From Achromobacter pestifer (lineage in GTDB: Bacteria > Pseudomonadota > Gammaproteobacteria > Burkholderiales > Burkholderiaceae_B): DNA of 64,000 nt. The stretch spans positions 3,100,001 to 3,164,000 of the forward strand of contig NZ_CP053985.1 of assembly GCF_013267355.1 (NCBI RefSeq), in the 5' to 3' direction. A program made the translations under genes and the position numbers. Position 1 is the first letter of the stretch. Every line of letters starts with the position of its first letter. Below are positions 1-14,723 of this stretch, one piece after another. The notes below the pieces were generated by a model. That model saw only the letters and a list, made by a program, of their open reading frames with translations, was not told where the DNA came from and made no database searches.

Positions 1-214
1 CTTCGGAGAGGAGCTGACCTCGGCCGAAATGGTCCGGATTATTCGCGACGCAGGGAAAAGCCCAATCCGCCGCAGTACCCTGTACCAGCATATCGAGTCA
101 TACGCGGACCATGATCCCCAGGATATCGCGCCGCTCAAACCGCGGCAGCAGGATCCGATCCTGTTCCTGAAGAACATCTCGCGCGGCGCCGCCAGGGAGG
201 CTGCTCATGTCTGA
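1..214 (+). CDS. cofH: FO synthase C-terminus (CofH or CofH half of a fused enzyme), partial at left edge
   Basis: Only the last 70 or so residues are present, read from base 2. They include GKSPIRRSTLYQ, which resembles the conserved arginine and LYR/TYQ segment at the C-terminus of CofH, the radical-SAM subunit that joins a tyrosine-derived radical to 5-amino-6-ribitylaminouracil to make FO, the deazaflavin core of F420. About 40 further residues follow that segment, a longer tail than I expect for the family. The stop codon overlaps the start of cofD by 8 bp, so this is the first visible gene of an F420 operon. Whether the full gene is cofH alone or a cofGH fusion cannot be seen. The call rests as much on context as on the short match. 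Confidence 0.7.
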   Translation, partial: FGEELTSAEMVRIIRDAGKSPIRRSTLYQHIESYADHDPQDIAPLKPRQQDPILFLKNISRGAAREAAHV

Positions 215-1196
215 CCGCAGCGCGCCCTTGCGCATTGTGCTCCTGGCCGGCGGCGTAGGCGGCGCCCGCATGGCGGTTGGCCTGTCCGCAGAGCCTAGAG
301 TGGGCCAACTGACGGTGATCGCCAATGTCGGGGACGACGATTGGTTTCATGGCCTGCGGGTGTGTCCCGACATCGACACGATCACGTATACCTTGGCGGG
401 CCTGGTCAACCGCGAGCAAGGGTGGGGCCTGGCGGGCGATACAGCCGGCGCTCTCGCCACGCTACGGACCCTGGGCTCGGAAGATACGTGGATGTCGCTA
501 GGCGACAGGGATATCGGGCTTCACATCTTTCGCTCGCACCGGCTGCGCCAGGGCCATCCCCTGTCCTCGATCACTCGCGCCGCCGCTCATGCGCTGGGCG
601 TGTCCGCGGCGATTCTGCCAGCCACGGACAGCGAAGTCCCCACCATCGTTTCCACAGCAGAGGGACGGCTGCGTTTCCAGCAATGGTTCGTCGAGCGCCG
701 CGCCAAACCCGCGGTCGCATCGCTGGAGTATGCGGGGGCCGGCCAGGCCATGCCGGCGCCGGGCGTGCGGGAGGCGATTGCATGTGCCGATCTGATCGTG
801 ATCGCGCCCTCCAACCCGCTGCTGTCCATCCATCCGATGCTTGCCATTCCGGGCATGCGCACAGCTTTGGCGGCTGCGTCCGCATCGATCGTCGCCGTTT
901 CCCCCCTGCTGCGCGGGGCCGCGGTCAAAGGGCCTCTTGCGGCGCTTGCGGCCGACCTCCACTTCCCGCCGGGCAACCTGGGTATCGCGCGCATGTACGA
1001 CGGACTGGTCGATGCCATGGTCATCGACCATGGCGATGCCGCCGACCAAGCCGGAATATCAGGCGCCATCGGCGTCCCCGTACTGTGCGCACACACACTG
1101 ATTGCGGATGCGGCCAGTGCGACTCGCTTGGCAAGCACCTTGATCTCCTGGGCCGGCACGCGCCGTGGCGAGCCCTTGGCGAGGGCGCGCTCATGA
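207..1196 (+). CDS. cofD: CofD, 2-phospho-L-lactate (or phosphoenolpyruvate/3-phosphoglycerate) transferase
   Basis: This 329-residue protein transfers the activated phospho-acid from CofC's product to FO, forming F420-0 or a dehydro form. The N-terminus carries the CofD glycine-rich segment LLAGGVGGARMAVGL at about residues 12-26. Near residues 45-85 come NVGDDDWFHGL, CPDIDTITYTLAGL and GWGLAGDT, which match the diphosphate-FO binding region typical of CofD/FbiA. Length is normal for the family. The gene overlaps the upstream FO synthase by 8 bp and shares ATGA with cofC, so the three are translationally coupled. Which phospho-acid is used cannot be told from sequence alone. Confidence 0.93.
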   Translation: MSDRSAPLRIVLLAGGVGGARMAVGLSAEPRVGQLTVIANVGDDDWFHGLRVCPDIDTITYTLAGLVNREQGWGLAGDTAGALATLRTLGSEDTWMSLGDRDIGLHIFRSHRLRQGHPLSSITRAAAHALGVSAAILPATDSEVPTIVSTAEGRLRFQQWFVERRAKPAVASLEYAGAGQAMPAPGVREAIACADLIVIAPSNPLLSIHPMLAIPGMRTALAAASASIVAVSPLLRGAAVKGPLAALAADLHFPPGNLGIARMYDGLVDAMVIDHGDAADQAGISGAIGVPVLCAHTLIADAASATRLASTLISWAGTRRGEPLARARS

Positions 1197-1807
1197 AAAC
1201 CCTGATCGCCATGCCGATGAAGGCATACGCCGACGCGAAGACCAGATTGTCCGGGGAACTCGATTCAGGGGCGCGCCAGCGGCTGGCGAAGGTCCTGTTC
1301 GAATACGGTCAGGCGTTCTTCTCGGAGAACTATCCGCAGCTGGACCGCCTGGTCGTCACGCCTTCATCTGAAGTCGCGAGAGCCGCCAGACGGGCGGGAG
1401 CATCGGCCTTGCGCGAGCCCATCGGTGTGGCCGGGCTGAATGCCGCCGTCGCCATGGCGCTGTCCTATGCGCGGCTCAGGCGCTATGACCGTCTGATCGT
1501 GCTGCCTGCCGATCTGGCCATCCTGAAGACGGTTGAATTCGATGCGCTGTTGGAGCTGGCGGACCGCTACGACCTGGTGACGGCAAGGGCGCACGATGGC
1601 GGAACGAATGCCTTGCTGCTGAAGCTACCCAACGCATTCACGTTTCGCTATGGCGCGGACTCGGCGCGTAAGCATCTACATCAAGCGCTGGAGCTGGGCA
1701 TGCGCGCCGTGACGGTTTCTCTTCCGTTCATTGGGCTCGATGTCGATTCGCCCTGTGACCGTGCTGAGGCGCGCCGGATCGGCGTCGGGGCCGGAGCCTA
1801 CCTATGA
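1193..1807 (+). CDS. cofC: CofC, 2-phospho-L-lactate guanylyltransferase
   Basis: This 204-residue nucleotidyltransferase activates a phospho-acid with GTP for CofD. The start MKTLIAMPMKAYADAKTRL has the nucleotide-binding lysines expected of CofC, and LPADLAILKTVEFDALL near residues 105-120 is the metal-binding aspartate region. Later DGGTNALLL and FRYGADSARKH are also typical. The ATG at 1193 sits in an ATGA overlap with cofD and gives the family length; the frame stays open far upstream but that part is a shadow of cofD. Substrate choice among 2-phospholactate, phosphoenolpyruvate and 3-phosphoglycerate is known to vary between bacteria and is not resolved here. Confidence 0.92.
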   Translation: MKTLIAMPMKAYADAKTRLSGELDSGARQRLAKVLFEYGQAFFSENYPQLDRLVVTPSSEVARAARRAGASALREPIGVAGLNAAVAMALSYARLRRYDRLIVLPADLAILKTVEFDALLELADRYDLVTARAHDGGTNALLLKLPNAFTFRYGADSARKHLHQALELGMRAVTVSLPFIGLDVDSPCDRAEARRIGVGAGAYL

Positions 1808-2598
1808 AGAACCCTCAAGGCTGCGCTTCGATGCAAGCATTCGCGATCTCGGGTATCCCGGCCGTCAAGCAGGGGTGCGATATCGGCCGACTCATACTCG
1901 ATGCGATTGCGCCGATGGACCTGGCGCTGTTGCCATCGGATGTGTTCGTCATCGCCCAGAAGATCGTCTCGAAAGCAGAGGGCCGGACCCGCCAGGCTGG
2001 TGCTATCGAAGCCGGTCCTCAAGCGCGCGATATCGCCGCCCGCAGCGGCAAGAATGCCGCAAAGGTACAGGCCATCCTGGATGAAAGCAGCGAGATTCTC
2101 CGGGTGGTGGACGCTCCGCCAGATGGGATCGTCATCGCGCGCCACAAGGCGGGTTGGGTCTGCGCGAACGCAGGAATCGATGAATCCAACCTGGGAGATG
2201 AGCTGGCCGCGGACACGCTGTTGCTGCTGCCCGAGGATCCGGACGCCAGTGCGCGCGGGATAGCCGAAACCATCGCGGACGCGACTGGCGTCAGGCCGGG
2301 CGTGATCATCAGCGACACCTTTGGCCGGCCCTGGCGGCGCGGGCTGCTCAATGTCGCGATCGGCGTGGACGGCGTTGTCCCCATCGTGGACTGGGTCGGC
2401 AAGAAAGATGCCTACGGCCGCCGGCTCAATGTTTCGCAGCAGGCCCTGGCAGACGAGATCGCCGCGGCCAGCGGCTTGCTCATGGCGAAGGATGCCGCGA
2501 CGCCGGTGATCCTTTTCCGGGGAATCGAATGGGATCGATCGGCGTCGGCGCGCGCGGTCGACTATGTGCGTCATCCAAACGAGGATCTTTTCAAATGA
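1804..2598 (+). CDS. cofE: CofE, coenzyme F420-0:L-glutamate ligase
   Basis: This 264-residue protein is the GTP-dependent ligase that adds the gamma-linked glutamate tail to F420-0. [14 protein letters not shown] near residues 40-55 and [12 protein letters not shown] near residues 170-182 are hallmark CofE segments. It is the stand-alone form; the nitroreductase-like C-terminal domain found in actinobacterial FbiB is absent. It overlaps cofC and the downstream F420:NADPH oxidoreductase by 4 bp at each end (ATGA both times), making a compact cofD-cofC-cofE-npdG unit. Tail length cannot be predicted. Confidence 0.93.
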
Positions 2599-3269
2599 CT
2601 ATTGCAATTCTTGGCGGTACCGGGCCCCAGGGTCAGGGCCTGGCCCTGCGATTCGCCAAAGCCGGCGTGCCGGTGGCGGTCGGTTCGCGCGATGGCGAGC
2701 GTGCAAGCGCCATCGCTGCCGAACTCAATCAGAAGCTTGTTCCATATCCTGCCGCGGCAACGATAGTGGGATGCTCGAACGAAGAGGCAGTCGCGAAGTC
2801 CGTCCGATTCGTCCTTATTGCGGTTCCTTTCGCCGCCCACGCCAGCACCGTCGAATCGGTCGCTTCGCGCGTCCGGGACCGGATCCTCGTCGATCTGGTC
2901 GTGCCGCTGGCGGACAAGAATCCCCGAGCCCTCGCGATGCCGCCGGAGGGCTCGGCCACTGAGCAGGCCCAGCGCATCGTCGGCGACGGGGTCGCCGTGG
3001 TGGGCGCGCTGCATAACGTTTCGGCACACACACTCAACGACCTCGAGGCCGCCATCAATTGCGACATTCTCATTGTCGGCAACGCGCAGGAAGAAAAAGA
3101 GGAAGTGTTGGCGTTGGTCGAGCGCATCGGCGTGCGCGCCTACGACGCAGGGCCGGTGGAGAACGCGCGCGTGGTGGAGGGCATCACGCCCCTGCTCATC
3201 CGTCTGAACATGAGCAAGAAGGTTCCCTTCTCTCATGCGGGCTTGCGCATCTGGGCGCCCGGCACGTAG
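2595..3269 (+). CDS. npdG: F420H2:NADP+ oxidoreductase (NpdG/Fno family)
   Basis: This 224-residue Rossmann protein exchanges hydride between NADPH and F420. The N-terminus [17 protein letters not shown] carries the GxGxxG-like loop, and GSRDGERA just after the second strand is the NADP-phosphate-binding pattern. Later [13 protein letters not shown] is typical of the F420-dependent NADP oxidoreductase group. The ATG at 2595 lies in an ATGA overlap with cofE; the frame extends upstream, but this start gives the right N-terminus. In an aerobe with NADPH supplied by the transhydrogenase encoded nearby, the likely direction is NADPH to F420H2. Confidence is high for family and moderate for direction. 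Confidence 0.9.
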
Positions 3270-3362
3270 GAAAAACAGGTCTGCGCAGGCAGGACAACCG
3301 TGGATGAGAAACGGGCATGCGCCGCGCAGCGCCAGGTCACTGAATGATCCAAGGAGAACGAG

Positions 3363-4613
3363 ATGGAGACAGTAGGAGAGTTGCGGGTGCAGGGCGGGCG
3401 CTTGTGGGATTCGTTGATGACGCTGGCCGAAATCGGGGCGACGCCCAAGGGCGGCGTCAAACGACTGGCGCTCACCGATCTGGATCGCCAGGGGCGGGAT
3501 CTGGTTGTGCAATGGGCTCGGGATGCGGGAATGACGGTCGCCGTGGACCAGATAGGCAATGTTTTCATGCGCCGCGAGGGCAGGAATCCGGAGCTGCCGC
3601 CGGTCGTCACGGGCAGCCATATCGATACGCAGCCCACTGGCGGAAAGTTTGACGGGAACTACGGCGTGCTGGCGGGCCTGGAGGTCGTCAGAACGCTCAA
3701 CGATCACGGGATCCAGACGGAGGCCCCGATCGAAGTCGTGTTCTGGACCAATGAAGAAGGAACGCGATTTGTTCCGGTCATGATGGGATCCGGCGTTTTC
3801 TGCGGAGCGTTCACGCTGGAGCACGCCTACGACGCTACCGACGTGGATGGCCTGAGCGTCCGGGACGAACTGGTGCGCATCGGATATTGCGGCCCGCACA
3901 AGCCGGGCAGCCGTCCGATCGGGTCGTATTTCGAAGCGCACATCGAACAGGGACCGGTGCTCGAGGACGCCGACAAGGTCATAGGCGTAGTTCCCGCAGT
4001 TCTGGGCCTGTCCTGGTACGACTGCGTCGTGACCGGCATGGAGGCGCATGCAGGCCCGACCCCGATGCCGTTGCGCAAGGATGCGCTTCAGGTGTCGACA
4101 CGCATCATGCAGGAGGTCGTTGCCATCGCGGATCGCCATCAGCCCTATGGCCGTGGCACCGTCGGCATGGTGCAGGTCCATCCCAACAGCCGCAACGTCA
4201 TTCCGGGCGAGGTCAGGTTTTCCATCGACCTGCGCAACGTCAATGACGAACTGTTGAACGGGATGCACGCCGAGCTGCTGGCCGTCGTGGAACGTGTCAG
4301 GCGTGAATCGGGCCTGTCCGTCGAGATCGAGCGTGTTTCCTACTACCCGCCATGCGCGTTCGACGAGAGCTGCGTGTCGGCGGTCCGGAATGCGACCGAA
4401 GCGCTGGGCTACTCGTCCATGGATGTGGTGTCCGGTGCCGGGCATGACGCCATCTACGTGTCGCGGCTCGCTCCTGCGGGGATGATCTTCGTGCCATGCA
4501 AGGACGGCATCAGCCACAACGAAGTCGAGGACGCCAAACCGGAGCACCTCGAGGCTGGATGCAATGTCTTGCTGCACGCGATGCTGGCCCACGCCAGGCC
4601 GGTCGAGCGCTGA
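3363..4613 (+). CDS. M20-family N-carbamoyl-amino-acid/ureidopropionate amidohydrolase
   Basis: This 416-residue binuclear-metal hydrolase belongs to the HyuC/allantoate amidohydrolase/bacterial beta-ureidopropionase branch of M20. Metal ligands visible are H86 in GSHIDTQ, D97 in GGKFDGNYG, the E131-E132 pair in WTNEEGTRF and H193 in AHIEQGP. H229 in AHAGPTPM lies in the dimerisation lid and contacts substrate in relatives. An AAGGAG ribosome site lies at about 3351. Members of this group release ammonia and CO2 from carbamoyl amino acids; with a beta-alanine-type transaminase and a nucleobase permease nearby, N-carbamoyl-beta-alanine (or its beta-amino-isobutyrate analogue) is the most likely substrate. 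Allantoate or hydantoin-derived carbamoyl amino acids remain possible. Confidence 0.85.
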   Translation: METVGELRVQGGRLWDSLMTLAEIGATPKGGVKRLALTDLDRQGRDLVVQWARDAGMTVAVDQIGNVFMRREGRNPELPPVVTGSHIDTQPTGGKFDGNYGVLAGLEVVRTLNDHGIQTEAPIEVVFWTNEEGTRFVPVMMGSGVFCGAFTLEHAYDATDVDGLSVRDELVRIGYCGPHKPGSRPIGSYFEAHIEQGPVLEDADKVIGVVPAVLGLSWYDCVVTGMEAHAGPTPMPLRKDALQVSTRIMQEVVAIADRHQPYGRGTVGMVQVHPNSRNVIPGEVRFSIDLRNVNDELLNGMHAELLAVVERVRRESGLSVEIERVSYYPPCAFDESCVSAVRNATEALGYSSMDVVSGAGHDAIYVSRLAPAGMIFVPCKDGISHNEVEDAKPEHLEAGCNVLLHAMLAHARPVER

Positions 4614-4629
4614 CCGGTTCAGATCCATG

Positions 4630-4655
4630 CCGTGGGCCGGAATACGCCGGCACGG
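4630..4655. other. Imperfect hairpin between the amidohydrolase gene and pntAA
   Basis: CCGTG(GG)CCGG pairs with CCGGCACGG across a six-base loop with a two-base bulge. No T-run follows, so it may be an attenuator or processing site and not a full terminator. It sits 16 bp after the hydrolase stop and 33 bp before pntAA. Confidence 0.3.
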
Positions 4656-4688
4656 AATTCGTTGGCAGGAACAAAAAAGGGGGGAGAA

Positions 4689-5807
4689 ATGCAGATAGGT
4701 GTTCCAACAGAGCGATCGCCGGGAGAAGCGCGGGTCGCTGTCACGCCGGAAACCGTCAAGCGCTTGAAATCGCGGGGGTACGACGTCCGGGTGGAGACGG
4801 GAGCCGGCGTACAGGCATGCATCACCGACAACGCTTTCCTGGATGCTGGAGCAAGCATGACGGATGCCCGCGGCGCACTGGCCTGCGATCTGGTGCTCAA
4901 AGTCAGGATTCCGTCGCCCGATGAGTTGAGGTCCATGCGGCCGGGCGCCACCTTGGTCGGGATGCTGGATCCTTTCGAGCCTGAGGGCCTGGACCATCTG
5001 GCGCGCGCGGGTCTCACCAGCTTTGCGCTCGAGGCCGCGCCTCGGACCAGTCGTGCTCAAAGCATGGATGTGCTTTCAAGCCAGGCGAACATCGCTGGAT
5101 ACAAGGCCGTGGTCGTCGCGGCCGCGCGCTATCCGCGCTTCTTTCCCATGCTGATGACCGCCGCGGGTACGGTCAAGGCGGCCAAGGTCGTGGTGTTGGG
5201 CGTGGGGGTGGCCGGCCTGCAGGCCATCGCCACGGCCAAGCGCCTGGGCGCTTCGGTGGAGGCCTGCGACGTGCGGCCTTCGGTCAAGGAACAGGTTGAA
5301 TCCCTAGGCGCGAAGTTCATTGACGTCCCTTGCGAGACGGATGAGGAACGGACGGCAGCCGAAGGCAGCGGCGGCTATGCGCGTCCCATGCCTCAGAGTT
5401 GGCTGGATCGGCAACGGCTGCAGGTGGCGAAACAGATTGCCCGAGCGGACATTGTGATCACGACAGCGCTTATCCCGGGCAGATTGGCGCCTGTCCTGAT
5501 CACGGAAGAGATGGTGAAGACCATGCGTGCGGGTTCCGTGATCGTGGACCTGGCTGCGTCCAATGGGGGCAACTGCCCGTTGACGGTGGCCGGCGAGACG
5601 GTCAAGGCGCACGGCGTCTCGATAGTCGGCGAAACGGACCTGCCGGCGCAGGCCTCCGCGGACGCAAGCTCACTCTATGCGCGCAATGTGCTGTCGTTCC
5701 TGAACCTCATCATCGACGGCGAAGGAAAGCTCCATGTGCCGATGGACGACGACATCGTTGCGGCATGTCTGGTCACTCATCAAGGCAACGTTACGCGAGG
5801 CAAGTAA
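4689..5807 (+). CDS. pntAA: Proton-translocating NAD(P)+ transhydrogenase, alpha subunit part 1
   Basis: This 372-residue soluble NAD(H)-binding component (domain I) of transhydrogenase starts [20 protein letters not shown], the usual PntA/alanine-dehydrogenase-like opening. The dinucleotide-binding loop [21 protein letters not shown] is near residues 170-190, and [14 protein letters not shown] near 265 is also characteristic. GGGGAG just upstream of 4689 fixes the start. The alpha chain is split into PntAA and PntAB here, as is common in Alphaproteobacteria and Betaproteobacteria. The complex uses the proton gradient to make NADPH, which can feed the F420 oxidoreductase encoded upstream. Confidence 0.92.
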
Positions 5808-6109
5808 TGGAATCAGTAGACATCACCTTGATCAACGCCATCATTTTCGTTCTGGCCATCTATGTCGGGTATCACGTGGTGTGGACGGTAACGCCCGCGC
5901 TTCATACCCCTTTGATGGCCGTCACCAACGCCATTTCCGGGATTGTCATCGTCGGCGCGATCCTGGCGGCAGCCATGACATCGACGCCGCTGGGCCGTGG
6001 GGCCGGCCTGGTCGCCGTCGCCTTGGCGGCGGTGAATGTATTTGGCGGATTCCTCGTGACGAAGCGGATGCTCGCCATGTTCAAGAAGAAAACCAGGAAG
6101 CAGGAATAG
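5807..6109 (+). CDS. pntAB: NAD(P)+ transhydrogenase, alpha subunit part 2 (membrane)
   Basis: This 100-residue membrane protein has three hydrophobic helices (about residues 7-28, 38-58 and 66-87). [13 protein letters not shown] between the first two helices is the conserved segment of the PntA membrane part. The stop of pntAA and this start overlap by one base (TAATG). The C-terminus is a basic tail, KKKTRKQE. Confidence 0.92.
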
Positions 6110-6145
6110 GCGACAGCTTGTTCCGGCAGTGCGGAGATTCGAGAA

Positions 6146-7630
6146 ATGAATGCAAACGTTGTAACGGCCCTATACCTGGTCGCGAGCATCTGCTTCATCC
6201 AGGCATTGAAGGGCTTGTCTCATCCTTCCACGGCGATCCGTGGCAACACTTTCGGCATGGCCGGCATGCTGATCGCCATTGTCACCACCGTTGCGCTGAT
6301 ATTCGACGTGTACGGCGAAACGACCGGGTTGATCTATGTGTTGCTGGGCCTTGCCGCCGGCGCGCTCGCGGGGGTACTGATGGCCCAGCGGGTGGAAATG
6401 ACGAAGATGCCGGAGCTGGTCGCGTTCATGCACAGCATGATCGGCCTGGCTGCCGTGCTGATCGCGGTCGCCGCGGTTACCGAACCCTGGGCCTTCGGCA
6501 TTGTGCAGGCGCCGGGCGTCGCCGGCAACGGCTTGACGCCCTCTGGGGGGGCAGCTATCGCCGAGGGTATCGCGCGCTTGCCGATTCCCCACGGTAACCG
6601 GCTGGAGCTGTTTCTCGGCGCGGCCATCGGTGCGATCACCTTCAGTGGCTCGGTCATCGCGTTTGGCAAGCTTTCGGGAAAATACCAGCTCCGTGTTTTC
6701 CAAGGCGCACCCGTCAGATTCGCCGGTCAGCACTGGCTGAATCTTGCGATCGCCGTTGCGATCCTGGCGCTGGGCGGATGGTTCGTCGCGACCGAGAACG
6801 GCTACGCCTTCTATTCGATGGTGGCGCTTTCCTTCCTGATCGGTGTCTTGATCATCGTTCCGATCGGCGGCGCGGACATGCCCGTGGTGGTGTCCATGCT
6901 CAATAGCTATTCGGGATGGGCGGCGGCGGGAATTGGATTCTCGCTGAACAATCCGATGCTCATCATCGCGGGCTCGCTGGTGGGGAGCTCGGGGGCAATC
7001 CTGAGCTACATCATGTGCAAGGCGATGAACCGCTCCTTCTTCAACGTGATTCTGGGGGGCTTCGGCAGCCAGGAAGCCACCGTGGGTGGAGGTTCAGCGA
7101 TCCAGAGAAACGTGAAGAGCGGCAGCCCGGACGACGCAGCCTTCGTATTGGGCAACGCGGAGAGCGTCGTGATCGTTCCGGGTTACGGCCTGGCTGTCGC
7201 GCGCGCGCAGCATGCGGTCAAGGAGCTCGCCCAGAAGCTGACCGAAAAGGGCGTGAATGTGCGATATGCCATCCATCCCGTCGCCGGCCGCATGCCGGGT
7301 CACATGAATGTCCTGCTGGCCGAGGCCGAAGTGCCCTACGACCAGGTCCACGAGATGGAGGACATCAACAGCGAGTTCGGGCAGACGGATGTGGCCATTG
7401 TGCTGGGCGCAAACGATGTGGTGAATCCGGCGGCGCACACCAAGGGCAGTCAGATCTACGGCATGCCCATCCTCGAGGCCTACAAGGCCAAGACCATCAT
7501 CGTCAACAAGCGGTCGATGGCTGCCGGCTATGCGGGCCTGGATAACGAGCTGTTCTACATGGACAAGACCATGATGGTATTTGGCGATGCCAAGAAGGTG
7601 GTCGAGGACATGCTCCGGGCGGTCGAATGA
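6146..7630 (+). CDS. pntB: NAD(P)+ transhydrogenase, beta subunit
   Basis: This 494-residue protein has a membrane domain of about 300 residues (domain II) followed by the NADP(H)-binding domain III. Conserved landmarks are GGADMPVVVSMLNSYSGWAA near residue 250, MCKAMNRSF near 290, VIVPGYGLAVARAQHAV near 345 and HPVAGRMPGHMNVLLAEA near 380. It completes pntAA-pntAB-pntB, so a functional complex is predicted. Its stop overlaps the start of the cyclohydrolase gene by 4 bp (ATGA), linking NADPH supply and flavin/deazaflavin precursor synthesis in one transcript. Confidence 0.95.
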   Translation: MNANVVTALYLVASICFIQALKGLSHPSTAIRGNTFGMAGMLIAIVTTVALIFDVYGETTGLIYVLLGLAAGALAGVLMAQRVEMTKMPELVAFMHSMIGLAAVLIAVAAVTEPWAFGIVQAPGVAGNGLTPSGGAAIAEGIARLPIPHGNRLELFLGAAIGAITFSGSVIAFGKLSGKYQLRVFQGAPVRFAGQHWLNLAIAVAILALGGWFVATENGYAFYSMVALSFLIGVLIIVPIGGADMPVVVSMLNSYSGWAAAGIGFSLNNPMLIIAGSLVGSSGAILSYIMCKAMNRSFFNVILGGFGSQEATVGGGSAIQRNVKSGSPDDAAFVLGNAESVVIVPGYGLAVARAQHAVKELAQKLTEKGVNVRYAIHPVAGRMPGHMNVLLAEAEVPYDQVHEMEDINSEFGQTDVAIVLGANDVVNPAAHTKGSQIYGMPILEAYKAKTIIVNKRSMAAGYAGLDNELFYMDKTMMVFGDAKKVVEDMLRAVE

Positions 7631-8244
7631 TGAGCGCGCGCGCCCATCGGGTCGAAACGGCGGCAGTCCGCGCACAGGTCGATCTGCCGGTGTCTTCGGC
7701 CAGCGGTCCATGCCGACTGGTCACCTTTTCCGGTCTTTCGCATGCGGATCATTTCGCACTTGTTTTCGGCGAGCTATCAGCGTGCCCGCTGGTGCGCGTG
7801 CATTCGGAGTGCGTGACTGGCGACGTATTCGGATCGTTGCGCTGCGACTGCGGCACGCAGTTGGACGCTGCCATCTCCCGCATCGAGGAGGCGGGCGGCG
7901 CGATTCTCTATCTACGGCAGGAAGGACGGGGCATCGGGCTGGCGGCGAAGATCGACGCCTATCTGCTGCAGCAGGAGGGGGTCGGTACGTTCGAGGCCAA
8001 CCGCCGCCTCGGTTTCCCGGAAGACCCCAGGGACTATCGGGATGCGGCAGAGATGCTCAGGCTCCTCGGCATCGGCCGAATTGAACTGTTGACCAACAAC
8101 CGGCACAAGTCCGCGGCGCTCGAAGCGGCGGGGATCACGGTGGCACGTGTCGTGCCATGTCCGGGAAAGTTGACTGCGCACAACGCGGCCTACCTGCGGG
8201 AGAAAAGGGAGCGGGACGGAATCACGAAGCACACAGGGCGATGA
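7627..8244 (+). CDS. ribA: GTP cyclohydrolase II (RibA type)
   Basis: This 205-residue protein opens the imidazole ring of GTP, the first step to riboflavin and to 5-amino-6-ribitylaminouracil, which is also the FO precursor. The zinc ligands are in HSECVTGDVFGSLRCDCGTQ near residues 59-78, and RQEGRGIGLA near 97-106 is the catalytic/GTP-binding segment; LTNNRHK near 156 is also conserved. It is a single-domain RibA, not fused to RibB. Its start overlaps pntB by 4 bp. Placement inside an F420 cluster suggests a dedicated paralogue that supplies deazaflavin synthesis; a housekeeping copy elsewhere is presumed but not seen. Confidence 0.9.
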   Translation: MMSARAHRVETAAVRAQVDLPVSSASGPCRLVTFSGLSHADHFALVFGELSACPLVRVHSECVTGDVFGSLRCDCGTQLDAAISRIEEAGGAILYLRQEGRGIGLAAKIDAYLLQQEGVGTFEANRRLGFPEDPRDYRDAAEMLRLLGIGRIELLTNNRHKSAALEAAGITVARVVPCPGKLTAHNAAYLREKRERDGITKHTGR

Positions 8245-8268
8245 CCCGCCCATATTGGAGGACGAACG

Positions 8269-9645
8269 ATGAATGCAGTACTCGAGACCAGCGGCCAGAT
8301 CGCGAACAGTGCGGACCCGGAGTTTCCGGTGAACACCGAGCGGACATGGTTGCAGGCCCACTGGATGCCTTTCACCGGAAACCGCAATTTCCTGCGGGAT
8401 CCGCGCATGATAGTGGGCGCCAAGGGCAGCTATTACTTCGATGCGGATGGGCGCAAGATCTTTGATGGACTTTCGGGGCTTTGGTGCACGGGGCTGGGGC
8501 ATTGCCGCGAGGAAATCACGCAGGCGGTGAGCCGCCAGGTCGCGCGCCTGGACTATTCTCCGGCGTTCCAGTATGCGCACCCGCTGTCATTCGAATTGGC
8601 CAACAGGATCAAGCAATTGATGCCGAAGGGCTTGGAGCATGTGTTCTTCACAGGTTCGGGCTCGGAGGCGGCCGACACTTCCTTGAAGATGGCGCGGGCC
8701 TATTGGCGGGCGCGGGGCAAGGCGTCCAAGACCAGGCTGATCGGCCGCGAGAAGGGCTACCATGGGGTGAACTTCGGCGGCATTTCGGTTGGCGGCATAG
8801 GCGGCAACCGCAAGGTGTTTGGCCAGGCGGTCGATGCGGATCATCTTCCCCACACGCAACCGGCAAGCGGATCGTTCGTTCGGGGCATGCCGACGGAAGG
8901 CGCTGAACTGGCCGACAAACTGCTCGATCTCATCGCTTTACACGATGCGTCCAACATTGCGGCCGTGATCGTCGAACCGTTCGCCGGTTCGGCCGGCGTC
9001 ATCATTCCGCCGCAAGGCTACTTGCGTCGTCTGCGGGAGATATGCACGGCGCACGACATTCTGCTGATCTTCGACGAAGTCATCACGGGCTTCGGACGCT
9101 CCGGCGCCATGACCGGCGCGGAGCGGTTCGGGGTGGTTCCCGACATCATCAATATTGCCAAGCAGGTGACCAATGGCGTTCAGCCCTTGGGCGCAGTGGT
9201 CGCCACGCCTGAGATCTATGGCGCATTCATGGCGGCGGGCGGCCCGGACTACATGCTTGAGTTTCCGCACGGCTACACCTATTCGGCGCATCCGGTGGCC
9301 TGCGCGGCAGGCATTGCTGCATTGGACCTGCTGGTCAAGGATGACGCCGTGGCTCGCGTTGCGCAGCTCGCCCCTTACTTCGAGGAGCGGGTGCATGAAT
9401 TGCGTGGCGCCAGGCACGTCGCGGATATCCGGAACATCGGCCTGGCGGCTGGATTGACGATCGAGGCGGTTCCGGGAGAGCCCGCGCGCCGCCCCTACGA
9501 GATCGCTCAACATTGCTGGAGCAAGGGATTCTATGTCCGGTACGGCGGGGACACCATCCAGCTGGCGCCGCCGTTCATCTCCACGCAAGCCGAGATCGAC
9601 GATTTGATCAATGTCCTCGGGGACGCGATCAAGACGACCGCTTGA
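8269..9645 (+). CDS. Class III omega-aminotransferase, beta-alanine:pyruvate type
   Basis: This 458-residue PLP enzyme has HWMPFTGNRNF at residues 31-41, a segment characteristic of bacterial beta-alanine:pyruvate transaminases. FTGSGSEAAD near 127 binds the cofactor phosphate, D269 in FDEVITGFGR contacts the pyridine nitrogen, and K298 in INIAKQVTNG is the Schiff-base lysine. Length fits. GGAGG is well placed before 8269. The predicted reaction is beta-alanine plus pyruvate to malonic semialdehyde plus alanine, or the 3-aminoisobutyrate analogue. It lies between the carbamoyl hydrolase and the semialdehyde dehydrogenase, in pathway order. Confidence 0.88.
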   Translation: MNAVLETSGQIANSADPEFPVNTERTWLQAHWMPFTGNRNFLRDPRMIVGAKGSYYFDADGRKIFDGLSGLWCTGLGHCREEITQAVSRQVARLDYSPAFQYAHPLSFELANRIKQLMPKGLEHVFFTGSGSEAADTSLKMARAYWRARGKASKTRLIGREKGYHGVNFGGISVGGIGGNRKVFGQAVDADHLPHTQPASGSFVRGMPTEGAELADKLLDLIALHDASNIAAVIVEPFAGSAGVIIPPQGYLRRLREICTAHDILLIFDEVITGFGRSGAMTGAERFGVVPDIINIAKQVTNGVQPLGAVVATPEIYGAFMAAGGPDYMLEFPHGYTYSAHPVACAAGIAALDLLVKDDAVARVAQLAPYFEERVHELRGARHVADIRNIGLAAGLTIEAVPGEPARRPYEIAQHCWSKGFYVRYGGDTIQLAPPFISTQAEIDDLINVLGDAIKTTA

Positions 9646-9670
9646 GAAACCATCAATTCCAAACTGGACC

Positions 9671-11191
9671 ATGAATATGAAGAATGAATACACGGTAACG
9701 AACACGATCGGACACTTTATCAATGGACGGCATGTTTGCCGGGCGGAATCGGTACAGCCCGTTTTTGATCCGGCGACCGGCGCGACGACCAAGAATGTGG
9801 CGCTAGCCAGCAAGGCCACGGTGGAGGAGGCCATCGCGGCGGCGCAGGCCGCGTTTCCGGCTTGGCGCAACACGCCGCCGCTCAAGCGCGCGCGCGTGAT
9901 GAGCCGCTTCAAGACCATCCTGGAAGACAACGCCGACCGTCTGGCCCGGTTGCTGGCGGAAGAGCACGGCAAGGTGCTGTCCGATGCGCATGGAGAGTTG
10001 CAGCGGGGGATCGAGAACGTCGAGTTCGCCACCTACGTGCCGCAATTGCTCAAAGGCGAGCACAGCAAGAACGTGGGGCCGAGCATAGATTCCTGGAGCG
10101 AGTTCCAGCCGCTGGGCGTGGTCGCGGGTATCACTCCCTTCAATTTCCCCGTCATGGTTCCCCTGTGGATGTGGCCCATGGCGGTGGCATGCGGCAACAC
10201 GTTCATCCTGAAGCCGTCGGAAAAGACGCCGTCATCGACACTGCTGCTCGCCTCGCTCGCGATCGAGGCCGGTCTGCCGCCGGGCGTGTTGAACATTGTC
10301 AATGGCAACAAGGAGGCGGTGGATACGCTGCTGACCGATACCCGGGTCAAAGCTGTTAGCTTCGTGGGGTCCACGCCTATCGCCGAATACATTTACACGA
10401 CGGGTTGCGCCCACGGCAAGCGCGTCCAGGCGCTGGGCGGCGCCAAGAACTTTGCCATCGTCATGCCAGACGCAGACATCGACAACGCCGTGAGTTCACT
10501 GCTGGGCGCGGCCTATGGGTCCTGCGGGGAGCGCTGCATGGCGATTCCGCTGGTGGCGGTCATCGGCGACCAGACGGCAGATGCGCTGGTGGAAAAGCTG
10601 GCGCTCGAGATTCGCAAGATGAAGGTCGGTCCAGGCCTGGAAGCGGGCAACGACATGGGACCCTTGGTATCGAAGCCTCATTTCGAGAAGGTGAGCGCAT
10701 ATGTTGCGCAAGGCGTGGCGGCCGGCGCCCGTCTCGTGGTCGATGGGCGTGGCGCAGTGGCGCACGCGCGGGACGGCTATTTCCTGGGCCCCTGCCTGTT
10801 CGACCATGTCAAACCCGGAATGTCGATCTACCAGGAAGAGATCTTTGGACCGGTGCTCGGCGTGGTGAGATTGAACTCCTTGCAGGAAGCGATGGAAATG
10901 ATCGACGCCCACGAGTATGGCAACGGTACCTGCATCTTCACCCGGGACGGCGAAGCCGCCAGGTACTTCAGCGACAACATCCAGGTCGGCATGGTCGGCG
11001 TCAACGTGCCGTTGCCCGTGCCTGTCGCCTACCATTCGTTCGGCGGCTGGAAGCGGTCCCTCTTTGGCGACCTGCACGCCTATGGTCCCGACGCGGTTCG
11101 CTTCTACACGAAGCGCAAGACCATCACGCAACGTTGGCCTTCGGCCGGCGTGCGTGAAGGCGTGGTCTTTGCGTTCCCGTCGAATCGCTAA
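9671..11191 (+). CDS. mmsA: CoA-acylating malonate/methylmalonate-semialdehyde dehydrogenase
   Basis: This 506-residue aldehyde dehydrogenase carries the MmsA signature GERCMA with catalytic C289, preceded by NFPVMVPLWMWPMA near residue 160 and FVGSTPIAEYIY near 232, all typical of the CoA-dependent class. It would convert malonic semialdehyde to acetyl-CoA or methylmalonic semialdehyde to propionyl-CoA. I chose the ATG at 9671 because it gives the family length; ATG 9677 is equally possible and the ribosome site is weak. It follows the transaminase by 25 bp and is followed by a strong hairpin. Confidence 0.9.
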   Translation: MNMKNEYTVTNTIGHFINGRHVCRAESVQPVFDPATGATTKNVALASKATVEEAIAAAQAAFPAWRNTPPLKRARVMSRFKTILEDNADRLARLLAEEHGKVLSDAHGELQRGIENVEFATYVPQLLKGEHSKNVGPSIDSWSEFQPLGVVAGITPFNFPVMVPLWMWPMAVACGNTFILKPSEKTPSSTLLLASLAIEAGLPPGVLNIVNGNKEAVDTLLTDTRVKAVSFVGSTPIAEYIYTTGCAHGKRVQALGGAKNFAIVMPDADIDNAVSSLLGAAYGSCGERCMAIPLVAVIGDQTADALVEKLALEIRKMKVGPGLEAGNDMGPLVSKPHFEKVSAYVAQGVAAGARLVVDGRGAVAHARDGYFLGPCLFDHVKPGMSIYQEEIFGPVLGVVRLNSLQEAMEMIDAHEYGNGTCIFTRDGEAARYFSDNIQVGMVGVNVPLPVPVAYHSFGGWKRSLFGDLHAYGPDAVRFYTKRKTITQRWPSAGVREGVVFAFPSNR

Positions 11192-11195
11192 GACT

Positions 11196-11220
11196 TGAGC
11201 CCGGTACAATACCGGGCTCA
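11196..11220 (+). terminator. Strong hairpin after mmsA
   Basis: TGAGCCCGGTA and TACCGGGCTCA form a perfect 11-bp stem with a CAA loop, starting 5 bp after the mmsA stop. The T-tract after it is poor (CTGTTCTTT follows about 13 bases later). It marks the end of the cof-pnt-ribA-transaminase-mmsA transcript. Confidence 0.75.
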
Positions 11221-11298
11221 GGCCTTGAGTCCCTGTTCTTTGTCTGTCCAGCCAGATGGGGCAGCGCGAGCGCGGGGCAGGCGAAAGCAGGATTTGCC

Positions 11299-11955
11299 AT
11301 GAGTCAATTTGCATCTGTACTGAGCCGGCCCGCGCGTGCGGGGCGCCGCGAATCGCTTCGGGATAATCTTGAGACCGTGGTATTGGCGGCCGCGGAGGAA
11401 TCCTTTTCCACCTACGGATTCGAAGGCAGCTCGCTGGCCACCATCGCGGAAGCGGCAGGCCTGTCCAAGCAGAATCTGCTCTATTACTTCCCCACCAAGC
11501 TGGCGCTCTATCAGCGGGTTCTAGGCGATGTGCTGGAAGATTGGCTGAGCCGCTTGAGGGAGATCGGCCGGTCCGAGCTGAGCCCCATGGATGCGATGTC
11601 CGCATACATCCATGCGAAGCTGGAGTTTTCCCGCAGGCGTCCCCATGGATCCAGAGTCTTTGCCCTGGAGATCATCGGCGGCGCCAAGACTTATGGGAAA
11701 GAAATCCGCAAGCAATTGATCCCGGTCTTGATGGAAGACATCCAGATGGTCGAACGCTGGATCGAGCAGGGCAAGGTGCGGCCCGTCAACGCGCATCATC
11801 TTTTCTTTGTGATCTGGGCCTCGACGCAGGCCTACGCGGATTTTGCTCCACAGATGCTTCTGGTCCTGGACAAGAGAGCATTGGGGCGCCGCGATTTCGA
11901 CGAGGCGTTCAAGACCATCAGCGAGATGGTGTTCCGGATGCTCATGCCGGAATAG
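11299..11955 (+). CDS. TetR-family regulator, RutR-like
   Basis: This 218-residue repressor has an N-terminal helix-turn-helix at about residues 25-70, with STYGFEGSSLATIAEAAGL and NLLYYFPTKLALY. The C-terminal part, with HLFFVIWASTQAYADFA near residue 170, resembles RutR, the uracil/thymine-responsive regulator of pyrimidine use. Ligand and targets here are inferred from that resemblance and from the surrounding permease and beta-alanine genes. It stands alone between the mmsA terminator and the promoter region of the LLM gene, on the same strand. I saw no copy of the RutR-type TTGACCA/TGGTCAA dyad. Confidence 0.82.
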   Translation: MSQFASVLSRPARAGRRESLRDNLETVVLAAAEESFSTYGFEGSSLATIAEAAGLSKQNLLYYFPTKLALYQRVLGDVLEDWLSRLREIGRSELSPMDAMSAYIHAKLEFSRRRPHGSRVFALEIIGGAKTYGKEIRKQLIPVLMEDIQMVERWIEQGKVRPVNAHHLFFVIWASTQAYADFAPQMLLVLDKRALGRRDFDEAFKTISEMVFRMLMPE

Positions 11956-12322
11956 CCTCGTCGCATTCCCCTGCTTCAGGCATCGCGTACCGGAGCCCGG
12001 CGCGCGTGCCAGCGGCTGCGCGTGTTCCAGCGCGCCATGCTCCTCCTTGCCTAAAGCGCGACGCAAGCGCCGGTTCATATCGTTGATGTGTCCGGGGCTC
12101 GGCCCTGCGCGTACCTCGTCGAACTGTTCAGGTCGTTCTGCCGACATGGTTGGCTGCCATGGCGCCGAACTGTACATGTCGTGTCTCAAATGCGGTTAGT
12201 AGACTCGCTGGAAATTTGACGAATGGAAAAAAATTTTCCAATCGAAAAATTCATTGAGTTCTATTGAAGAACCGTTATCGAGACATTCAGACCGATCCTC
12301 AGGTCATGTAAGGAGAAACAGC
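11956..12322. other. 367-bp intergenic region before the LLM oxidoreductase gene
   Basis: The first 220 bp is GC-rich like neighbouring genes. It contains an open minus-strand frame (about 11970-12190) with no recognisable protein and no ribosome site. From about 12200 the sequence turns sharply A/T-rich and holds the dyad at 12224-12240, so the promoter of the LLM-permease unit is probably here. Nothing else is recognised. Confidence 0.5.
12224..12240. promoter_or_regulatory. A/T-rich palindrome, candidate operator of the LLM-permease unit
   Basis: TGGAAAA and TTTTCCA flank three A residues, giving a perfect 7-3-7 dyad 83 bp upstream of the LLM start. A second, weaker repeat (ATTTTCC / CGAAAAAT) overlaps its right side. 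The neighbouring TetR regulator is the obvious candidate binder, but this is inference. Confidence 0.4.
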
Positions 12323-13360
12323 ATGGAATTCGGCATTTGCTTCAAGGGCTTCGTCGAAGCCGATCGCGCGCGCTACCTGGTCCGCATGGCCGAGGTGGCG
12401 GGCTTCAAGTACTGCTGGTTCTACGATTCCCACATCCTCTGGCGCGAACCTTATCCGGCCATCGCGATGTGCATGGAGCATACGAAGGAGATGCGCTTTG
12501 GCCCCTTGGTGACCAACCCAGACGTGCGCGACTGGTCGCTGGCCGCGTCGTTGTTCGGTTCGCTTGCCAAGCAAAGCGGGGGGCGTTTCGACGTGGCGGT
12601 CGGGCGCGGCGACAGTTCGCGCCGAGTGATGGGCGGCAAGCCCGCGTCACTGGAGCGGGTTGCCGAATTCGTCTCGAAAGTGAAGGGCATGGTGCGCGGC
12701 GACGAGGTCAGCTATGACGGCAACCCCAATCCGGTCAAGTTCCCGTGGGCGGTGGGCTACGAGATGCCATCCTGGATCGGCGCATATGGCCCGATGGCGC
12801 TGAAGTGCGCCGGCGAGCACGCGGATGGCGTAGTCCTGCAGATCGCCGAGCCCGGACTGTGCAAATGGTTCGCGGACCAGTGCAAGGAGGCCGCGGCGGC
12901 CGTGGGCAAGGATCCGGAAAAGTTCCGCGTGATGGCCGCGGCGCCTGCGTACTTGGGGTCGGCCGAGGCTTGCTTCGAAGCGACGAAGTGGTTCCCGGCC
13001 ATGGTCGGGAACCACGTTGCGGACATTGTTGAAAAATACGGCAAGGATACGGACCTGGTGCCGCACAGCCTGACCAGCTATGTGGAGAACCGGCGCGGCT
13101 ATGACTATTCCAAGCATGGCCAAAGCGACAACCCTTACCTGGATTTCATCACGCCTGAAGTCGTTTCGTCCTTCTGCGTGCTGGGCCAGGCGAGCGATCA
13201 CATCCAGAAGATCCATGCGCTGGAGGACGCCGGCGTGACGCAGTTCAACATCTACCTGGATAGCGGCGACGAAGAGAACATCATTGCCACCTATGGCCGT
13301 GAAATCATTCCGGAGTTTCAAGCCGAGCGTTCGACATCCTCCGAAGCGATAGCCGCGTGA
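12323..13360 (+). CDS. Luciferase-like (LLM) oxidoreductase of the F420-dependent type
   Basis: This 345-residue TIM-barrel protein starts MEFGICFKGFVEADRARYL and has GGRFDVAVGRGDSSRRVMG near residues 88-106, the pattern of Mer-like F420-binding LLM proteins, as opposed to FMN-binding monooxygenases such as RutA, which it does not resemble. WIGAYGPMALKCAGEHADGV near 150 is a second conserved barrel segment. AAGGAG precedes the 12323 ATG. From memory it matches the putative F420-dependent family modelled as TIGR03842, of unknown function, whose proteobacterial members are often the only F420-type LLM protein in the genome. Its place between F420 synthesis and nucleobase uptake suggests an F420H2-dependent reductase acting on the imported compound. 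Confidence 0.82.
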   Translation: MEFGICFKGFVEADRARYLVRMAEVAGFKYCWFYDSHILWREPYPAIAMCMEHTKEMRFGPLVTNPDVRDWSLAASLFGSLAKQSGGRFDVAVGRGDSSRRVMGGKPASLERVAEFVSKVKGMVRGDEVSYDGNPNPVKFPWAVGYEMPSWIGAYGPMALKCAGEHADGVVLQIAEPGLCKWFADQCKEAAAAVGKDPEKFRVMAAAPAYLGSAEACFEATKWFPAMVGNHVADIVEKYGKDTDLVPHSLTSYVENRRGYDYSKHGQSDNPYLDFITPEVVSSFCVLGQASDHIQKIHALEDAGVTQFNIYLDSGDEENIIATYGREIIPEFQAERSTSSEAIAA

Positions 13361-13379
13361 CGTGGCAAGGGGAAATTCC

Positions 13380-14723
13380 ATGAACAAAGGCTATTTTCCA
13401 AGGTGGCGCCTGCGCGAGACGCGCGATACGGACCAACCTATAGGCCCCGACGAACGTCTGCCTTGGCCGGAGACCGTCGTCATAGGCATGCAGCACGTTG
13501 TGTCCATGTTCGGGGCCAACTTCATTGCTCCGCTGATCGTGGGATTTGATCCGAGCGTCTCGATCTTCATGTCCGGGGTAGGGACGCTGATCTTCTTCGT
13601 GGTCGTGGGCGGACGGGTGCCCAGCTACCTCGGGTCCAGTTTTGCCTTCGCCGCGGCGGTCATCGCCGTGACCGGATACTCGGGCCAGGGGCCGAATCCG
13701 CAGATTCCTGTGGCCTTGGGCGGAATCATTGCGTGCGGGGTCGCCTATGCCGGCTTGGGTCTCGTCGTGATGAAGTTCGGCGTGGGCTGGATCGAAAAAA
13801 TCATGCCGCCGGTCGTGACCGGCGGCGTGGTCGCGGTCCTGGGCCTGAATCTGGCCGGGGTTGCCGTCAAGGAAGCCAGCAGCAGCACGTTCGATTCGGC
13901 GATGGCATTCGTCACGATCATCTCGGTTCTCGCGTTGGCCGTCGGCGCGCGCGGAATGTGGCAACGCCTCATGCTGCTGCTCGGAGTACTGATGTCCTAC
14001 GCCATCTACGCGCTGCTCGCCAATGTGGCCGGTTTGGGCAGGCCCATCGATTTCGCGCCCATCATCGCAGCCCCGTGGTTTGGTTTACCTGCCTTTACCG
14101 CGCCGTCTTTCACACTGCAGGCCAGCATCATGATGGTCCCGGTCGCCATCATTCTTGCCGCCGAGAATCTCGGCCACCTCAAGGCGGTGGAGGTCATAAC
14201 GGGTAAGAATCTGGATGGCTACATGGGGCGCGCCTTCTTTGGCGATGGGATAGCGACCGTGGTTTCGGGAGGCATCGGCGGTGTCGGAGCGACGACCTAT
14301 GCCGAGAACATCGGCGTCATGGCGATGACCAAGATCTACTCTACGTTGACCTTCGTGATCGCGGCGTTCACGGCCATCGCACTTGGATTCTGCCCGAAGT
14401 TCGGTGTGGCCATCACGACGATTCCCCCTGCGGTGATGTCTGGAGTGAGCATCGTCGCGTTCGGTCTGATCACCGTTGCGGGTGTAAGAATCTGGGTGAG
14501 CCATCGGGTGAACCTCACTCAGAACAAAAACACGATCGTCGCGGCAGCGATCATCATCATGGGTACGGGAGACTTCACGGTCGAGATTTTTGGATTTCCG
14601 CTTGGAGGGATAGGAACGGCAACCTTCGGTGGGATGGCGCTTTACGCGCTGGCATCGTTTTTTGAGAGCGCCAAGCGCGGCGACGCTGTCGCCGCCAACC
14701 CAGCCGATGCCACGGCACATTGA
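13380..14723 (+). CDS. NCS2-family nucleobase:proton symporter (uracil/xanthine permease)
   Basis: This 447-residue integral membrane protein has about 14 hydrophobic segments. Family landmarks are QHVVSMFGANFIAPLIVG near residue 36, SSFAFAAAVIAV near 90, VVTGGVVAVLGLNL near 145, the substrate-site region AENLGHLKAVEVITG near 263 and GGVGATTYAENIGVMAMT near 300. The last matches the UraA/RutG group. ATG 13380 follows AAGGGG; a GTG at 13362 is less likely. The gene starts 19 bp after the LLM gene, so the two are co-transcribed. Uracil, thymine or another oxopyrimidine is the likely cargo; xanthine cannot be excluded. Confidence 0.9.
   Translation: MNKGYFPRWRLRETRDTDQPIGPDERLPWPETVVIGMQHVVSMFGANFIAPLIVGFDPSVSIFMSGVGTLIFFVVVGGRVPSYLGSSFAFAAAVIAVTGYSGQGPNPQIPVALGGIIACGVAYAGLGLVVMKFGVGWIEKIMPPVVTGGVVAVLGLNLAGVAVKEASSSTFDSAMAFVTIISVLALAVGARGMWQRLMLLLGVLMSYAIYALLANVAGLGRPIDFAPIIAAPWFGLPAFTAPSFTLQASIMMVPVAIILAAENLGHLKAVEVITGKNLDGYMGRAFFGDGIATVVSGGIGGVGATTYAENIGVMAMTKIYSTLTFVIAAFTAIALGFCPKFGVAITTIPPAVMSGVSIVAFGLITVAGVRIWVSHRVNLTQNKNTIVAAAIIIMGTGDFTVEIFGFPLGGIGTATFGGMALYALASFFESAKRGDAVAANPADATAH

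Follow-up and report, generated by a model that had tools for sequence, protein, structure and literature searches.

An F420-linked first step proposed for reductive pyrimidine degradation in an Achromobacter pestifer gene cluster

What does coenzyme F420 do in Achromobacter pestifer? A 64,000-nucleotide stretch of its genome (G000:C2:3100001-3164000, contig NZ_CP053985.1; hereafter the window) opens with genes for F420 synthesis, which share a cluster with genes for nucleobase breakdown and with a gene for an oxidoreductase of the luciferase-like monooxygenase (LLM) type. According to a 2021 review, experimental work on F420H2-dependent reductases had not reached any bacteria other than the actinobacteria, and the role of the coenzyme in those other bacteria needs study (PMC8498797). 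An original prediction, made from the letters of the window, held that F420H2 reduces uracil, thymine or a related ring here, giving F420 a defined job in this lineage. From our computational follow-up, we consider it highly probable that the cluster serves reductive pyrimidine degradation and that the LLM protein, a member of family TIGR03842, reduces uracil, and probably thymine, with F420H2, replacing PreTA.

The LLM gene (12323..13360, on the plus strand, like every cluster gene of A. pestifer placed below) encodes a protein that clears the curated cut-off of TIGR03842 (F420_CPS_4043) with 492.4 bits against 295.45, in a full-length match (positions 1-329 of 329). NCBI lists this family as a 'hypothetical equivalog' and gives it no function; it is nearest to the F420-dependent enzyme Mer. 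The protein is not itself a Mer, as it scored 119.1 of 348.7 bits with TIGR03555 and 122.9 of 276 bits with PRK02271, both far under the cut-off, and at residue 6, a Glu in Mer that is mutated in 8qq8, all 24 aligned members have Cys or Thr. Nor is it a RutA: the 14 families that it matched at E <= 0.001 do not include the model for that enzyme (TIGR03612). Among the structures listed, the closest matches to its predicted fold are F420 enzymes, an indirect sign of F420 binding. In a gene tree of 46 rows, the window protein stands beside that of Paraburkholderia BCC1884 (97/85), Devosia proteins are nested in the family and a Streptomyces row forms a long branch. The tree was drawn from the 80 related loci described below, with four omitted because their contigs were short or the locus was doubtful, the importer type reduced to 12, and seven further loci dropped where the match span crossed a stop codon.

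Could another enzyme of this genome take the first step? The assembly comprises two contigs (7.18 Mb) and is 100% complete. Its sole PF01180 protein, at C2:1476446, is a quinone-type dihydroorotate dehydrogenase (PyrD), the PreA model NF006183 gave no match in the genome, and no dihydropyrimidine dehydrogenase of the PreTA/PydA type was recognised. RutA (TIGR03612) gave no match there at E <= 1e-60. These profile searches found no PreTA or RutA encoded elsewhere in the genome, in agreement with the original prediction, which saw no PreAT gene. The genome encodes five PF00296 proteins, among which only the window's belongs to TIGR03842; the other four comprise NtaA/DmoA, MsnO8 and a pair of TIGR03571 proteins. 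A search for FDOR-A (PF04075), which is a further class of F420 enzymes, gave nothing in the genome. Within the searches run, which did not take in FDOR-B and similar classes, no clear consumer of F420 was found besides the LLM protein, and it is, as originally proposed, the only candidate reductase.

The association of TIGR03842 with pyrimidine breakdown extends well beyond A. pestifer. We compared 51 TIGR03842 genomes, consisting of 49 hand-picked from those behind the 80 loci (36 non-Devosia and 13 Devosia/Pelagibacterium), G295 and the A. pestifer genome; the non-Devosia loci L015, L021, L023, L025, L036, L042, L061 and L078, and also L083, were excluded from this set. All 51 encode a dihydropyrimidinase over the TIGR02033 cut-off. 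All 51 also have a source of F420, whether synthesis or import, with CofD in 35 (34 over cut-off), while in the remaining 16 the LLM gene is flanked by genes for an importer and CofE. PreA occurs in only five, FDOR-A in 11 and RutA in one, Devosia indica, which has four copies. These four RutA-like genes stand in tandem (G413:C34:29794-34320) and all exceed the RutA cut-off; the genome encodes dihydropyrimidinase and TIGR03842 besides. Herbaspirillum autotrophicum and an Alteromonas are among the genomes with neither PreA nor RutA.

For comparison, among 369 genomes of the window's class, TIGR02033 was over its cut-off in 16, PreA was found in 10 and TIGR03842 in 2; all 10 PreA genomes and both TIGR03842 genomes fall within the 16, and PreA and TIGR03842 are never found together. 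Fisher tests on the beta- and gammaproteobacterial TIGR03842 genomes, with class taken from record names (L069 is named just 'Proteobacteria bacterium'), gave p = 8e-31 for dihydropyrimidinase (26/26 versus 14/367 others) and p = 6e-5 for PreA (2/26 versus 10/14), values that are rough guides because the genomes are related. This co-occurrence across genomes leads us to reject chance co-location of the LLM and pyrimidine genes, and as far as sequence can tell it supports the proposed F420H2-linked reduction of uracil or thymine. It likewise supports a defined role for F420, but one not confined to a single lineage as first stated, since carriers occur in the alpha-, beta- and gammaproteobacteria, among them the F420-salvaging Devosia, and in a single Streptomyces.

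How, then, is the LLM gene placed in its relatives? A scan of named genomes yielded 403 relatives, and the best 80 loci were retained and mapped by tblastn with the window genes. At least three of cofG, cofH, cofD and cofC lie near the LLM gene in 31 of the 80, and dihydropyrimidinase, carbamoylase or RutR is present as well in 24 of those. On an annotated plasmid of Paracoccus alcaliphilus, cofGHDCE, npdG and the TIGR03842 gene are consecutive. The F420-0 importer permease (TIGR03869) is present in 40 loci, mainly from Devosia and its relatives, accompanied by cofE in 39 and by Fgd in 38; the genomes lacking CofD (L013-L060, mainly Devosia; for example, L037 and L043) seem to live on salvaged F420-0. 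One of them is Devosia riboflavina (L059/G417), in which CofD is missing and the importer adjoins the LLM gene. Also found near the LLM gene are npdG (26 of 80), an NCS1 nucleobase symporter (17) and a ribonucleoside hydrolase (14).

Nine of the 80 loci have neither the cof set nor the importer, and four of them, L064, L068, L069 and L075, keep pyrimidine genes near the LLM gene; for L069, a 7.6 kb contig starting with the LLM gene, these amount to a weak match to MMSDH and a RutR of 38% identity. Another of the nine, the 6 kb contig L061, carries cofE, npdG and carbamoylase. In the corresponding genomes (G381, G385, G386 and G392), the cof genes lie apart from the LLM gene, with CofD encoded elsewhere and two to three FDOR-A proteins each, and F420 probably serves several enzymes. 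The dihydropyrimidinase frame in the L068 genome (G385:C175:230-1588) contains one TGA, either real or an assembly error. In the L069 genome, the LLM gene (L069:16-1014) opens its contig and the L143 dihydropyrimidinase (G386:C51) ends about 200 bases before the end of another; by analogy with L064, where dihydropyrimidinase is followed by LLM, the two may be neighbours split by assembly.

The Rhizobiaceae and Devosia have their LLM gene beside F420 genes and away from dihydropyrimidinase. We examined 20 dihydropyrimidinase loci from TIGR03842 genomes, and all 14 of the alphaproteobacterial ones hold dihydropyrimidinase, carbamoylase and AptA together, with RutR in 13 and MMSDH in 10 of the 14. 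By tblastn, PreA and PreT were absent from the 80 LLM loci, these 20 loci, the window, L002 and L003, with matches only in the five PreA loci L092-L096; two of the 14 alphaproteobacterial genomes (G407 and G403) encode PreA elsewhere. The remote LLM gene would supply the first step that is missing from the alphaproteobacterial pyrimidine loci.

The arrangement is also seen in an actinobacterium. In one record, from Streptomyces sp. BHT-5-2 (L147), the TIGR03842 gene starts at 12001, 11 bases after a dihydropyrimidinase frame (554 bits) that ends at 11989; the TIGR03842 protein scores 590 bits and is 39.5% identical to the window's. The genes upstream encode a class III aminotransferase and a carbon-nitrogen hydrolase, for which N-carbamoylputrescine amidase was the best model, at a score below cut-off. 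A Rhodococcus plasmid gave a weaker hit (34%). We think it likely that TIGR03842 is a family of F420H2-dependent uracil/thymine reductases unrelated to NAD(P)H-linked PreTA and ferredoxin-linked PydA, that most pseudomonadote carriers, Devosia included, have F420 mainly or solely for pyrimidine breakdown, and that the actinobacterial members do the same job.

Which other functions does the A. pestifer cluster hold? The genes named in the original prediction are all present at or very near the positions it gave, as judged by NCBIfam profile scores, with cut-offs mostly exceeded; its inventory omitted the transhydrogenase genes (4689-7630) and ribA. It forecast a ring-opening hydrolase to the left of base 1, and the 20 kb on that side (read as L002) contain dihydropyrimidinase, cofG and cofH in that order. 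The dihydropyrimidinase (L002:16277-17716) scores 581 bits with TIGR02033 (cut-off 393), and its nearest solved structures are 5ykd and 5e5c (D-hydantoinase/dihydropyrimidinase, 710 bits). cofG ends at L002:18918 (TIGR03550, 453 bits), and cofH, for FO synthase subunit 2, runs from L002:18928 to window position 214 (TIGR03551, 456 bits), its 3' end being the FO synthase end recognised earlier at window 1..214. There follow cofD for a 2-phospholactate-type transferase (207..1196; TIGR01819, 279.7 bits, cut-off 257), cofC for a guanylyltransferase (1193..1807), cofE for F420-0:glutamate ligase (1804..2598; TIGR01916, 240.9 bits, cut-off 181) and npdG for NADPH-dependent F420 reductase (2595..3269; TIGR01915, 204 bits, cut-off 150). 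From cofH to npdG the intergenic spacings are -8, -4, -4 and -4 bases, and with its gene ends overlapping in this way the block looks like an operon. The set for F420 biosynthesis and reduction (cofG, cofH, cofD, cofC, cofE and the reductase) is complete, with cofC assigned by its position between cofD and cofE and by relatives, tblastn having located it in 31 of the 80 related loci.

The remaining genes fit the later steps of the pathway and the supply of cofactors. An M20 carbamoylase (3363..4613; NF006769, 655 bits, cut-off 452) is the candidate beta-ureidopropionase; it matches the solved N-carbamoyl-beta-alanine amidohydrolase 8c46 with 432 bits, a match that does not decide substrate specificity. 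Next come pntAA for the transhydrogenase alpha subunit part 1 (4689..5807; NF006942, 422.6 bits, cut-off 383), pntAB for part 2 (5810..6109, start approximate, a small membrane open reading frame between pntAA and pntB) and pntB for the beta subunit (6146..7630, assigned by placement and sequence, and located by tblastn in 4 of the 80 related loci). A GTP cyclohydrolase II gene, ribA (7627..8244; NF001591, 226.5 bits, cut-off 148), would probably supply the precursor of the deazaflavin FO. The AptA-type omega-amino acid transaminase (8269..9645; NF052567, 702 bits, cut-off 500) and the (methyl)malonate-semialdehyde dehydrogenase (MMSDH; 9671..11191; TIGR01722, 631.5 bits, cut-off 448) are, at family level, the two enzymes that the reductive pyrimidine pathway requires. 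Downstream of a TetR regulator gene (11299..11955; PF08362, 144 bits) and beginning 367 bases after it, the LLM gene and an NCS2 nucleobase:cation symporter gene (13380..14723; TIGR00801, 305.9 bits, cut-off 292) form a pair 19 bases apart. The regulator scores 180 bits with TIGR03613 (cut-off 368) and the permease 578 bits with the RutG model TIGR03616 (cut-off 759); with both below these equivalog cut-offs, the earlier labels 'RutR-like' and 'nucleobase permease' are right for relatives of this kind, and 'RutR' or 'RutG' would be too strong.

Elsewhere the cluster contains further genes or is incomplete. There is an alanine dehydrogenase gene on a Caballeronia plasmid (L149:11935-13050, from the plasmid annotation) and an alanine racemase gene in Halopseudomonas (L080:13691-14758); these enzymes could recycle alanine derived from the transaminase. 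The same Caballeronia plasmid has an LLM fragment (L149:10001-10384) adjoining a carbamoylase gene, with IS66 elements a few kb off.

Regulation of the pathway may involve more than the RutR-like protein. An A+T-rich promoter region ahead of the LLM gene (12224..12249, plus strand) holds the 11-mer CAATCGAAAAA at 12239. This 11-mer occurs only twice in 104 kb, the other copy being at L002 16143 (window -3857), 134 bases ahead of the dihydropyrimidinase ATG, and it is possibly an operator shared by the two genes. Further left is a divergent gene for a MocR/PdxR-type regulator (L002:14528-16072), relatives of which (40-44% identity) are encoded close to the LLM protein in L010, L063 and L066; this regulator may control part of the pathway.

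We propose the following route, in which coenzyme, substrate, direction of reaction and regulation are all putative. The NCS2 permease would bring in the base, and PntAB would keep NADPH reduced. NpdG, taking hydride from NADPH, would make F420H2, a task that would fall to Fgd with glucose 6-phosphate in many alphaproteobacteria. The LLM enzyme would hand the hydride of F420H2 to the uracil or thymine ring, giving the 5,6-dihydro base, the ring of which dihydropyrimidinase would open before the M20 enzyme strips off the carbamoyl group. AptA would transaminate the resulting beta-alanine or 3-aminoisobutyrate, which are the breakdown products of uracil and thymine, and MMSDH would yield acetyl-CoA or propionyl-CoA. 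The RutR-like regulator would control the pathway, with the cof operon and ribA providing the coenzyme. As to what F420 might offer, redox potentials of -340 mV for F420/F420H2 and -320 mV for NAD(P)H are quoted (PMC12750041), so reduction would be slightly more favourable with F420H2 than with NADPH. A deazaflavin enzyme, having no iron-sulfur clusters, might also be less sensitive to oxygen.

Three other readings of the LLM protein deserve consideration. It is hardly credible that it is a RutA-like oxygenase opening the ring oxidatively. RutA is an oxygenase dependent on flavin mononucleotide (FMN), and the LLM protein gave no TIGR03612 match, is closer to F420 enzymes by sequence and fold, and comes from a family whose 51 searched genomes all have a source of F420; a dihydropyrimidinase would also be superfluous after oxidative opening. 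An F420 enzyme with an unrelated job, placed here merely by its use of F420 while an unrecognised enzyme reduces uracil, would account for the Rhizobiaceae and Devosia loci, where the LLM gene accompanies F420 genes and not dihydropyrimidinase, and NCBI assigns TIGR03842 no function that would contradict it. Yet dihydropyrimidinase is present in every one of the 51 genomes, the two genes adjoin in Streptomyces, and in L064, L068, L069 and L075 the LLM gene stays with the pyrimidine genes though the cof genes lie apart, which argues against this very unlikely explanation.

More weight, if still little, belongs to the possibility that an enzyme of the same type and pathway position reduces another ring of the dihydropyrimidinase type, for example a substituted uracil, a ring that gives a hydantoin, or a modified base, in parallel to PreTA where both exist. 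AptA and MMSDH, by family knowledge, suit beta-alanine and 3-aminoisobutyrate, the products of uracil and thymine, and the RutR-like regulator and the ribonucleoside hydrolase genes in 14 of 80 loci also favour uracil and thymine. Against this stand the name D-hydantoinase carried by TIGR02033, and the five PreA genomes, among them Trinickia (G384), in which PreA and the LLM cluster occupy separate contigs and a dihydropyrimidinase gene lies on both. For Chloroflexota, 'yanthine' reduction in urate breakdown has been ascribed to a putative F420-linked enzyme of the luciferase family (PMC12507026). Overall, we regard a different ring as improbable.

Several observations weigh against F420H2-dependent reduction of uracil and thymine by the LLM protein. 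PreA and TIGR03842 occur together in five of the 51 genomes, so one does not in every case simply replace the other, and their substrates could differ. Four genomes of the class (G093, G107, G214 and G265) have a dihydropyrimidinase over cut-off without PreA, TIGR03842 or RutA, so this hydrolase alone is no proof of pyrimidine reduction; their enzymes may be hydantoinases, or another reductase may be present. Seven of the 31 cof-linked loci have none of the genes for dihydropyrimidinase, carbamoylase and RutR within 10 kb. In Paraburkholderia BCC1884 (L010), a genome with PreA, the cluster dihydropyrimidinase (L010:3733-4260) matches residues 3-178 only; this truncated gene and the L149 LLM fragment are apparently decaying copies of the cluster. 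The lowest Fgd row of the fold comparison (28.7) and the best FMN row (28.1) differ by a gap within the tie margin, and the top Protein Data Bank match of the M20 carbamoylase is labelled just 'deacylase'. CAATCGAAAAA is not a conserved element before the pyrimidine genes of 17 related loci, which makes it a weak operator candidate. Because no more than 4 or 5 candidates were scored for each genome in the class searches (up to 25 for chosen genomes), the class counts may be slightly low; that sample is a single class, with a dihydropyrimidinase base rate that covers no alphaproteobacteria, and the 51 TIGR03842 genomes are not independent, as 13 of them are Devosia or Pelagibacterium. Finally, for Mycetohabitans rhizoxinica, others found no putative F420-dependent oxidoreductase gene (PMC11104420), and our idea therefore cannot cover every F420-making betaproteobacterium.

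Among the papers listed from the open-licence literature of PMC, which excludes subscription papers and preprints, we recognised no report of F420-dependent uracil or thymine reduction, though one may exist elsewhere, and no paper there names TIGR03842. If F420H2-dependent uracil/thymine reduction is confirmed, F420 would have a specific role in the pseudomonadotes that carry TIGR03842, and a hypothetical-equivalog family would be assigned a reaction. It would also be a non-homologous enzyme for a catabolic step known from human dihydropyrimidine dehydrogenase, and a uracil-ring reductase without iron-sulfur clusters would be a useful biocatalyst.

How does the proposed route compare with known systems? 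It shares with reductive pyrimidine degradation (PreTA/PydA, PydB, PydC) the dihydropyrimidinase, AptA, MMSDH and permease, together with a candidate carbamoylase and the proposed order of reactions, but has no PreT/PreA; in their place would stand the F420 LLM protein, npdG (or Fgd) and F420 synthesis or import. The LLM protein differs from its relative Mer in its scores with the Mer models and at residue 6, Cys or Thr where Mer has Glu. With the Rut pathway it would have in common a Bac_luciferase-superfamily enzyme acting on uracil, as well as RutR/RutG-like neighbours, although the RutA model does not match the LLM protein and RutA is absent from the genome. The ferredoxin-dependent PydA of Clostridium is likewise a variant of the first step with a different electron donor, but it remains a PydA homologue, whereas the reductase proposed here comes from another superfamily (PMC7332683). 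The putative yanthine reductase of Chloroflexota belongs to a purine pathway in another phylum and was proposed from gene neighbourhoods; like the LLM protein, it would be an F420-linked luciferase-family reductase standing in place of a flavoenzyme in the breakdown of a base (PMC12507026).

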